A program made the translations under genes and the position numbers. The notes beneath the pieces were generated by a model. The model searched no databases. It had not been told where the DNA came from and was given only the letters and a program-made list of their open reading frames with translations. Below, in pieces: positions 58,803-60,871 of a stretch of DNA of 64,000 nucleotides; within the stretch, counting starts at the first letter, position 1, and every line of letters starts with the position of its first letter. Origin of the DNA: Chloroflexota bacterium (lineage in GTDB: Bacteria; Chloroflexota; Anaerolineae; J036; Brachytrichaceae); contig JANXLU010000049.1 in assembly GCA_025354985.1 (NCBI GenBank), forward strand, positions 1-64,000, given 5' to 3'.

Positions 58803-58881
58803 GGGTGAATTTGGGCTACCGTGACATTTTATTTGAACGAACGCCATCACGTGCACCACGCGGGGAAATGAAAGATCGTGC

Positions 58882-58887
58882 TACAAT
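58882..58887 (+). promoter_or_regulatory. Extended -10 box for the metG leader
   Basis: TGC followed by TACAAT (58879-58887) forms an extended -10 element. It ends 10 nt before the leader-peptide ATG at 58898, the same spacing seen at other predicted leaderless starts in this window. No -35 match is visible. Confidence 0.6.
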
Positions 58888-58897
58888 TTCTCTCGCA

Positions 58898-58966
58898 ATG
58901 ACTGCAAACCTCGGTTCAAGCATGATGATGCCCGGCGAAACAATCGCGCGGGCTGATGAACAGTGA
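58898..58966 (+). CDS. metG leader peptide with three consecutive Met codons
   Basis: A 22-codon open frame, beginning MTANLGSSMMMPGE and ending ARADEQ before TGA at 58964-58966. Codons 9-11 (58922-58930) are ATG ATG ATG. It lies between a -10 box and an intrinsic terminator in front of methionyl-tRNA synthetase, the position of a regulatory leader peptide. The peptide itself is unlikely to have a function; ribosome position would be the signal. Too short for normal gene finders. Confidence 0.75.
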   Translation: MTANLGSSMMMPGETIARADEQ

Positions 58967-59029
58967 GTGTTGTCCGTCAGTTTCAGAAATGGTTTTAATC
59001 AACCGCCCGCGCAAGTGGGCGGTTTTTTT
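58930..59029 (+). promoter_or_regulatory. Transcription attenuator of metG (alternative hairpins plus intrinsic terminator)
   Basis: Three exclusive pairings are visible. Hairpin 1:2 pairs GCCCGGCG (58930-58937) with CGC-G-CGGGC (58945-58953). The antiterminator 2:3 pairs GCGCGGGC (58946-58953) with GCCCGCGC (59005-59012), 8 bp perfect. The terminator 3:4 pairs AACCGCCC (59001-59008) with GGGCGGTT (59017-59024) and runs into T7 (59023-59029). Strand 1 begins at the third Met codon of the leader peptide, so a ribosome stalled for Met-tRNA would mask it, free strand 2 and prevent termination. Confidence 0.8.
59001..59029 (+). terminator. Intrinsic terminator in the metG leader
   Basis: An 8-bp stem AACCGCCC/GGGCGGTT with an 8-nt loop, followed by a run of T ending at 59029. 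It is 69 bp upstream of the metG start and downstream of the leader-peptide stop, so metG expression requires read-through. Confidence 0.85.
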
Positions 59030-59098
59030 GTTGGCTGAATCGGTTGAGTTGTTTGCATTAGTTTCAATACCTTGGAACAAAGAATAGTAAGGAGAAAA

Positions 59099-60871
59099 AT
59101 GGAAAACATTCTGGTTTGTCTGGCCTGGCCATATGCGAACGGCGACGCACACGTGGGCCACATCGCGGGCGCCTATTTGCCCGCGGATATTTTTGCGCGC
59201 TATCAGCGGCTCACCGGCAACCGGGTGGTGGTGGTCAGCGGTAGCGACAGCCATGGCACGCCGATTGTGGTGAGCGCCGAGAAGCAAGGCAAGACCCCGC
59301 GTGCGCTATTTGAACATTTTCACGCCAGGTTTTTGCAGACATGGATAAAGCTCGGAATCAGCTATGACCTGTATACGCACACCGACACCGAAAACCACCA
59401 CGCGATCGCGCAGCAGATGTTTACGCGGCTGAACGACAACGGGCAGCTGTTTCTGGCCAAACAAAAGCAGGTGTATAGCGAGAAGCAGCAAAAGTTTCTG
59501 CCAGATCGGTTTGTTGAGGGCACGTGCCCTATCTGCGCGTATGACAAGGCGCGTGGAGACCAGTGTGACAACTGCGGGAATCTGCTTGAAGCGGTGCAGC
59601 TCATCAATCCGCGCAATCGAAACCTGGCCGATGATGTTCTGAGCATTCGCGAGAGCGAACATTACATGTGGGATCTGCCGCAGGTGGGGCCGGCTATTGG
59701 CGAATATCTCGCGGACAAGGACAGCTATTGGCGACCTCAGGTGCTAAACTTTGCGCGCAACTTTGCCAAAGACCTGAACCCGCGCGCGTTTACACGCGAC
59801 CTGACGTGGGGGATTCCGATCCCGGTGCCTAACAGCGAGGGGAAGTGCATCTACGTGTGGTGGGAAGCGGTGCTCGGCTATCTGACCGCGACGATTGAGT
59901 GGGCCAAGCTCAATGGCACACCGGAAGCGTGGAAGGATTTTTGGTATGCGCCCGACAACGTAAAAATCTATAACTTCATTGGCAAGGACAACATTCTGTT
60001 TCACACGGTGTTGTGGCAGGGGATCCTATTGGGAATGAAGCACCTGGGTGACGAAGCTGCGCCACGCCCGGGAGACAACCCGACGTTTAACCTGCCATAT
60101 GACGTGCCTGCAAATCAATATGTAAATTTGAACGGGCAAAAGTTTAGCAAGAGCCTGGGTGTGAGCGTGGAGGCGCTGGAATTGGCCGAAAAATATGGCG
60201 CGGACCCCGTGCGGTTTTATCTGACCCAGATCATGCCCGAGCAGCGTGATGCGGATTGGAGCTTTGAGGGCTTCACGCAGGCGAACAACAGCGAACTGCT
60301 GGCCAAATGGGGCAACCTGGCGCAGCGCACGCTAAGCCAGATATTCAAAAACTTTGACGGAGCCATACCAATCCCCGGCGCATTGACCGAGGCGGATCAG
60401 GCCCTGCTGACCGCAAGCCGGGCCGCGTTTGCGGCGGTCGGTGAATCGCTTAACGCGGTGCGATTACGCGAGGCACTGACGCTGGCAATGGAGCTGGCCG
60501 GCAAAGCTAACTACTACATTGACCAGCAGGCGCCGTGGAAAATCATAAAGGTGGACAAGGCGCGGGCCGGGACGCAACTGTATGTGGCGGCCCAGGTGAT
60601 CGATCACTTAAGCGTGTTGCTCTCACCATTTGTGCCGGATCTGTGTGAGGCGGTGCGCCGGCAGTTGGGCTATGCCAAGCCGCTCTTCGGCCGGTTGTTT
60701 ACCGAGACGGTGCACGAACGCACGCGCGACCACGAGGTGTTGCGCTATGACGCGCGCGAGGCGGACGGACATTGGGTGGCTTCGCAATTGGCAGCCGGAC
60801 AAAAGCTGGGGGGTGAGCCCAGAGGGTTGGTGACAAAAATCGAGGTTGCAAAAGAGTTACCGAAAACATAG
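59099..60871 (+). CDS. metG: Methionyl-tRNA synthetase
   Basis: 590 residues. Class I signature region LAWPYANGDAHVGHIAGAYL (HVGH), zinc-binding knuckle CPICAYDKARGDQCDNCG (about 143-160), KMSKS loop as GQKFSKSLG (about 345-352) and a C-terminal anticodon-binding helical bundle. It lacks the C-terminal Trbp111-like dimer domain, as some forms do. The ATG at 59099 has a clear AAGGAG (59089-59094); the frame is open back to 59072 but has no better signal. Expression is probably controlled by the attenuator just upstream. Confidence 0.96.
   Translation: MENILVCLAWPYANGDAHVGHIAGAYLPADIFARYQRLTGNRVVVVSGSDSHGTPIVVSAEKQGKTPRALFEHFHARFLQTWIKLGISYDLYTHTDTENHHAIAQQMFTRLNDNGQLFLAKQKQVYSEKQQKFLPDRFVEGTCPICAYDKARGDQCDNCGNLLEAVQLINPRNRNLADDVLSIRESEHYMWDLPQVGPAIGEYLADKDSYWRPQVLNFARNFAKDLNPRAFTRDLTWGIPIPVPNSEGKCIYVWWEAVLGYLTATIEWAKLNGTPEAWKDFWYAPDNVKIYNFIGKDNILFHTVLWQGILLGMKHLGDEAAPRPGDNPTFNLPYDVPANQYVNLNGQKFSKSLGVSVEALELAEKYGADPVRFYLTQIMPEQRDADWSFEGFTQANNSELLAKWGNLAQRTLSQIFKNFDGAIPIPGALTEADQALLTASRAAFAAVGESLNAVRLREALTLAMELAGKANYYIDQQAPWKIIKVDKARAGTQLYVAAQVIDHLSVLLSPFVPDLCEAVRRQLGYAKPLFGRLFTETVHERTRDHEVLRYDAREADGHWVASQLAAGQKLGGEPRGLVTKIEVAKELPKT

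Follow-up and report, generated by a model that had tools for sequence, protein, structure and literature searches.

The window, the stretch of 64,000 nucleotides (nt) that was analyzed as a whole, carries on its forward strand a gene at positions 59099 to 60871 that encodes a protein of 590 amino acids and is preceded by a Shine-Dalgarno sequence (AAGGAG), read from the sequence at 59089 to 59094. An earlier note on this DNA had called the gene metG, and it is a true methionyl-tRNA synthetase (MetRS) gene, since the product scored 455.9 bits against TIGR00398, for which the cutoff is 336.35, and matched PF09334 with an E value of 6.4e-129. The gene on the other side of the leader encodes an FkbM-family methyltransferase and is divergent; thus, the terminator found in front of metG belongs to the metG transcript, and the possibility that it serves the upstream gene was ruled out.

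All elements of the leader lie on the forward strand. An extended −10 element of the leader promoter (TGC-TACAAT) at 58879 to 58887 is followed by a leader peptide open reading frame (ORF) of 22 codons (MTANLGSSMMMPGETIARADEQ*) at 58898 to 58966, in which codons 9 to 11 (58922 to 58930) are ATG ATG ATG, the putative regulatory codons. Strand 1, the protector (GCCCGGCG), occupies positions 58930 to 58937, its first base being the final one of the third Met codon. Strand 2 (CGCGCGGGC) extends from 58945 to 58953 and has either strand 1 or strand 3 as its partner, whereas strand 3 (AACCGCCCGCGC), at 59001 to 59012, pairs with strand 2 through positions 59005 to 59012 and doubles as the 5′ arm of the terminator through positions 59001 to 59010. 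The 3′ arm is formed by strand 4 (59015 to 59024), and an intrinsic-terminator T tract is read at 59023 to 59029. The promoter element, the ORF, the Met codons, and strands 1 to 3, including the onset of strand 1 at the last Met codon, were thus found where the earlier note had put them; only strand 4, given there as 59017 to 59024, proved to be slightly longer.

The alternative pairings proposed for these strands, strands 1 and 2 (1:2) together with the terminator 3:4 or the antiterminator 2:3, were also recovered. The core of strand 2 (GCGCGGGC, 58946 to 58953) is a perfect 8-bp complement of 59005 to 59012 in strand 3, and 3:4 is a 10-bp stem followed by the T tract. Predicted energies were −14.7 kcal/mol for 1:2, −26.7 kcal/mol for 2:3 (−20.4 kcal/mol for the core duplex), and −18.9 kcal/mol for 3:4, and the fold of the whole leader in the window was only mildly better than that of shuffled sequences (z = −2.15). 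The three helices are mutually exclusive in the family of the window genome, as is required of a trp-type attenuator, and a further criterion of that class is satisfied by a short leader ORF that starts near the promoter and lies upstream of a terminator and a structural gene. Among 58 hairpin-plus-T sites in the window, an upstream ORF with a two-Met cluster was present at three, the metG leader included, and a three-Met cluster was present at the metG leader alone.

Each of the 23 family leaders has a −10-like hexamer (5 of 6 matches) whose end lies 8 to 12 nt upstream of the start codon. The usual distance between a −10 element and the transcription start is 6 to 8 nt; therefore, the mRNA should begin at the leader start codon or a few bases before it. 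On this indirect evidence, we infer a transcription start at about 58893 to 58898 in the window, and the leader mRNA is probably leaderless in this family. A start downstream of 58930, which would have refuted the attenuator proposed earlier, is not indicated, since the promoter was found upstream of the ORF, although by sequence only. In other families of the class, some leaders exhibit the same or a shorter −10 spacing, and others combine a longer 5′ leader with a Shine-Dalgarno-like sequence (L036, L058, and L061).

Conservation of the leader within its family

All 28 genomes of the family, which represent the whole order in our set, carry metG, and the upstream region was readable for 27 copies. 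The leader peptide is kept before metG in 23 of them and is missing from the remaining 4, which comprise the three genomes of genus g6 and L020. At two of the g6 loci (L029 and L030), the metG start codon is immediately preceded by a −10-like hexamer, an arrangement that looks as though deletion of the leader had rendered metG itself leaderless.

Where the leader is kept, the peptide varies freely in its N-terminal half, and most family leaders end with M-x-M-P-G/D. The first Met codon of this pair is invariant in the 22 aligned leaders, even though none of the paired strands includes it. Six different codons occur at the next position, and 18 of the 22 leaders have ATG as the third codon. Among the other four is L013, in which the Met pair lies two codons farther upstream (..MLMPSPG..), so that its second Met served as the anchor of the alignment. 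Of 23 family leaders, 20 keep both Mets of the pair, and the second one has been lost in L014, L018, and L027. The frame that links the promoter to the Met cluster stays open and has a start codon in 23 of 23 leaders, compared with 0 and 2 for the other two frames, a test that is partly circular because the −10 element was located relative to the chosen start. A terminator kept in the absence of the Met codons or of the reading frame, the other case that would have spoken against the attenuator, is therefore not the rule.

The pairs of 1:2, 2:3, and 3:4 are preserved in 93, 94, and 90% of the cells of the family alignment, respectively. Strong covariation within the family was sought but not found. 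The best of the three helices in this respect was 2:3, with two compensatory changes that were equaled in 4 of 500 shuffles, and 1:2 did not rise above the shuffles; covariation is weak here because the strands are too conserved. Thus, the comparison with Chloroflexota relatives that the earlier note had called for was borne out for the Met codons, the frame, strands 1 to 4, the terminator, and the drifting N terminus, all within the family, and the covariation it had expected of each helix was met only in part, with the pairs kept but slight covariation overall and none beyond shuffles for 1:2.

In the window (58935 to 58966), a 1-base deletion between strands 1 and 2 distinguishes the leader from those of its kin, such that the peptide ends with ..ARADEQ* instead of ..RAG*, and strand 2 is unchanged. 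Since the C terminus of the peptide is altered in this genome, the deletion argues against the peptide itself as the signal.

When the family genomes were searched with a covariance model for copies of the element elsewhere, 22 metG leaders and 12 weaker matches outside metG leaders were obtained. The three strongest of these 12 were rejected: they lie in or beside ordinary coding sequence, and two of them adjoin an ordinary hairpin terminator.

Methionine codons before metG and their spread over the phylum

To what extent the Met codons exceed chance was assessed with dinucleotide shuffles. In the family, an ORF in which two or more Met codons fall within a stretch of six codons precedes the metG terminator at 21 of 24 loci versus 8.5% of the shuffles, and for the loci of the class the corresponding values are 22 of 38 and 5.2%. 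Clusters of at least three Met were present at 26% of the class loci but at 0 of 1,140 shuffles. In a Met-blind test, for which one ORF per locus was selected by position and length only, Met accounted for 9.9% of the residues versus 1.7% in neighboring proteins; this 5.7-fold enrichment was the highest for any residue. As controls, other synthetase genes of the same genomes were inspected, and Met clusters were found at neither pheS (0 of 23) nor trpS (0 of 26), the pheS control being limited by a match in L190 that started within the gene and by a near absence of terminators at pheS loci. These data indicated that the arrangement is more than chance and that the codon cluster matches the amino acid of the regulated gene, as in trp-type attenuators.

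Terminator-type leaders with clustered Met codons were further observed at 27 of 80 metG upstream regions from other families of the class, to which L154 has to be added, and at 2 of 38 outside the class (L125 and L145, both of family f101). These leaders were chosen by eye from a scan, from which two chance-looking matches (L067 and L078) were excluded, and for two of the 27 (L065 and L069) the terminator is weak or has no clear placement. In total, the leaders span 13 families of the class, the family of the window genome included, and one family of another class, with a patchy distribution across families. Leaders of different families look unrelated, as exemplified by L035 (MYLLSTGYSEMMMPRPPW..), L051 (MKRSTILMMMRSLPW..), L054 (..LGMMVMCYPRR..), L056 (..FTMSMVMRSPRR..), L106 (MVTMTMVMRMAMFGR..), and L111 (MNFKPAFPMVLITMAMRTMRMEMSCC..), and share the clustered Met codons before metG. 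Strand 2 was not seen at the expected place in f39 and in L114. Family f10 (L036 to L046) carries a second strong hairpin (CGGTCGGGGGCCTGAGGCCCCCCCGACTG) that overlaps the end of the leader ORF, besides the terminator nearest to metG.

Ribosome position and the pairing of strand 3

The effect of the ribosome was simulated by moving its edge codon by codon over 52 leaders and computing the upstream pairing of strand 3 before strand 4 exists. Pairing of 2:3 was stronger when the ribosome stood at the Met codons than when it had reached the stop codon (P = 0.0006; 52 leaders). In addition, the steepest loss of pairing fell 0 to 4 codons past the last Met in 19 of 41 less redundant leaders versus 9.4 expected (P = 0.0006). 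Strand 2 usually starts 13 to 22 nt after the last Met codon, which is just outside the leading edge of a ribosome stalled there, and the regulatory codons are sited such that a ribosome halted on them would hide strand 1 but leave strand 2 accessible, so that this criterion of trp-type attenuators is satisfied as well. The 2:3 duplexes are also stronger than those of shuffled sequences (combined P = 9e-10), with the reservation that family members are not fully independent.

Placing the ribosome at the Met codons and removing it altogether did not yield clearly different pairing at equilibrium (P = 0.17; 52 leaders), and for this reason 1:2 has not been shown to play its classical role beyond the family of the window genome. 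In that family 1:2 is conserved, whereas in others the hairpin is often weak, so that the state without a ribosome may not terminate there, and several other leaders already favor 2:3 without a ribosome. For the complete leader, equilibrium folding favored the terminator at most ribosome positions (0.96 in the window with the ribosome at the Met codons) and did not separate the states of the switch; it was therefore rejected as a proof of switching. Since equilibrium favors the terminator, we infer that switching must rest on 2:3 forming kinetically before strand 4 is made.

In several leaders (L010, L017, L054, and L106), 2:3 pairing without a ribosome is as high as that with a Met-stalled ribosome and drops only when the ribosome reaches strand 2. 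Such behavior would suit a general translation-sensitive attenuator, in which any slowed or absent translation of the leader permits 2:3 and the Met codons are incidental. We regard this explanation as improbable, because it accounts neither for the 5.7-fold enrichment and the clustering of Met nor for a first Met codon that is invariant though unpaired, and because the Met clusters directly precede the point at which pairing is lost and the regulated gene is that of MetRS.

Even less credence is given to a pause that is caused by nascent-peptide arrest, for example, at the recurrent Met-Pro-Gly, or by a stall at proline codons, rather than by tRNA shortage. It is true that M-x-M-P-G/D is common in the family of the window genome and that Met-Pro recurs in f9, f39, f41, f43, and f53, but Met is not followed by Pro in many leaders (L036, L051, L052, L054, L056, L064, L106, and L111), and the residues preceding the Mets are not conserved. 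Moreover, CCC GGC sits in strand 1, and the recurrence of Pro-Gly is thereby explained by the RNA.

Proposed mechanism and known systems

We consider it very likely that the element is a ribosome-mediated transcription attenuator of metG that senses charged elongator Met-tRNA, although no expression data are available. According to this model, RNA polymerase would initiate at the leader start codon or a few bases before it, and a ribosome, whose translation of the leader is inferred, would trail the polymerase. With plentiful Met-tRNA, the ribosome would clear the Met cluster and either cover strand 2 or depart, letting 1:2 form; with strand 2 covered or engaged in 1:2, 3:4 would form and transcription would terminate before metG. 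With scarce Met-tRNA, the ribosome would wait with a Met codon in its A site and strand 1 covered, and strand 2, left exposed because its start lies about 13 to 20 nt farther downstream, would pair with strand 3 as soon as the latter is made. The 2:3 helix would then pre-empt the terminator, metG would be transcribed, and Met-tRNA would be restored. Thus, more MetRS is probably made when charged methionine tRNA is short. As far as can be judged from sequence evidence, the metG leader would work like a trp-type attenuator that reads methionine codons: the features that can be tested in this way fit, the response to Met-tRNA is inferred, and the untranslated state is unresolved. The interpretation as a Met-codon attenuator put forward earlier is supported to this extent, and regulation in vivo has not been shown.

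MetRS also charges the initiator tRNA; therefore, a severe shortage should block the start of leader translation, and in a trp-type design with a strong 1:2, blocked initiation would lead to termination just when MetRS is most needed. A speculative solution, which we put forward with considerable doubt, is a Met-specific attenuator that occurs across several families of the phylum and whose sensed amino acid is the initiator. A moderate shortage would stall elongation at the Met cluster, a severe one would prevent initiation on the leaderless mRNA, and a weak 1:2 would give antitermination in both states, so that the switch would keep working even if initiator Met-tRNA were lost as well. Such a design would suit an amino acid that serves in both the initiation and the elongation of peptides. 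For MetRS, a methionine version across Anaerolineae and one further class would extend attenuation to the sole amino acid whose shortage threatens initiation on the leader itself, and it makes testable how an attenuator functions when the synthetase of the sensed tRNA also charges the initiator.

The trp-, his-, and phe-type attenuators of Proteobacteria, including E. coli pheST (PheRS), resemble the metG leader in having a leader ORF whose codons match the amino acid handled by the regulated gene, the alternative 1:2, 2:3, and 3:4 pairings, and an intrinsic terminator, and the target of pheST is likewise an aminoacyl-tRNA synthetase. The metG leader differs from them in sensing methionine, the initiator residue, in its occurrence in Chloroflexota, and in its probably leaderless mRNA, and no sequence kinship was seen. 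Leaderless amino-acid attenuators are known from Actinobacteria; their transcripts begin at the leader start codon or one nucleotide away from it, and they resemble the metG leader in their clustered regulatory codons and in attenuating the genes downstream, but they sense other amino acids, act on biosynthetic rather than synthetase genes, and belong to another phylum. Examples are the leaderless amino-acid attenuator of C. glutamicum ilvBNC (PMC11857589) and the polycysteine leaderless ORFs of mycobacteria (Canestrari 2020, cited in PMC13236596).

Besides the His, Leu, Thr, and Trp leaders of Rfam, PMC3766115 lists Ile/Val and Phe leaders, with a probable gamma-proteobacterial origin, and no RNA structures were reported for methionine operons of Actinobacteria (PMC1262725). 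Leader-peptide attenuators have been described for Trp, His, Leu, Thr, Ile/Val, Phe, and Cys, most of them from Proteobacteria and Actinobacteria (PMC3766115; PMC1262725; Canestrari 2020, as cited in PMC13236596). Searches of the open-access literature yielded no methionine attenuator for metG, a scope that leaves out most subscription papers, above all the survey of attenuation in amino-acid and aminoacyl-tRNA operons by Lopatovskaya et al. (2010, Mol Biol 44:128), which is cited in PMC4833913. Within these bounds, the novelty claimed earlier for a Met-codon attenuator of MetRS holds: this kind of attenuator is already known, and the methionine specificity, the phylum, and the initiator-residue twist appear to be new.

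A riboswitch or T-box (SAM or tRNA-Met) that governs the terminator, with a merely fortuitous ORF, can practically be dismissed, for although a terminator alone would fit it and T-box-like elements do precede valS, leuS, and a further locus in the window genome, only about 100 nt separate the leader start codon from the terminator, there is no conserved aptamer-like block besides strands 1 to 4, and no Rfam match reached the gathering score in the window and 20 metG loci apart from one tRNA gene. The Rfam models of the T-box (RF00230) and the SAM riboswitches were unmatched by the metG leader, and a search of metG leaders at lax thresholds gave unconvincing matches only, none of them a T-box or SAM element. 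As an attenuator, the metG leader shares with the T-box leaders of synthetase genes the matching of synthetase transcription to tRNA charging by antitermination; T-boxes, however, bind uncharged tRNA directly, whereas the ribosome would be the sensor in the metG leader, where no T-box was found.

The three T-box-like elements of the window genome all score below the Rfam cutoff. They are L224 (G000:C19:152645-152854, minus strand; E value of 5.3e-15), followed by an ORF that reads as valS; L225 (G000:C20:115236-115462, minus strand; 8.4e-12), followed by one that reads as a YbaK/ThrRS-editing-like protein; and L226 (G000:C45:89271-89479, minus strand; 2.5e-7), followed by one that reads as leuS. 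These genes were named by reading their translations, without a family search. This suggests that a single genome can rely on T-box-like elements for some synthetases and on a ribosome-sensed leader for a different one.

Upstream of trpS, eight loci of the family (L202, L203, L208, L210, L211, L215, L216, and L220) also carry a strong terminator-like hairpin, the arms of which resemble GCGCCCGTCCTC and GAGGACGGGCGC. It had no Rfam match in the seven loci scanned. Some of the short ORFs near these hairpins contain PNWK or PNWR, and the hairpin is possibly part of another attenuator.
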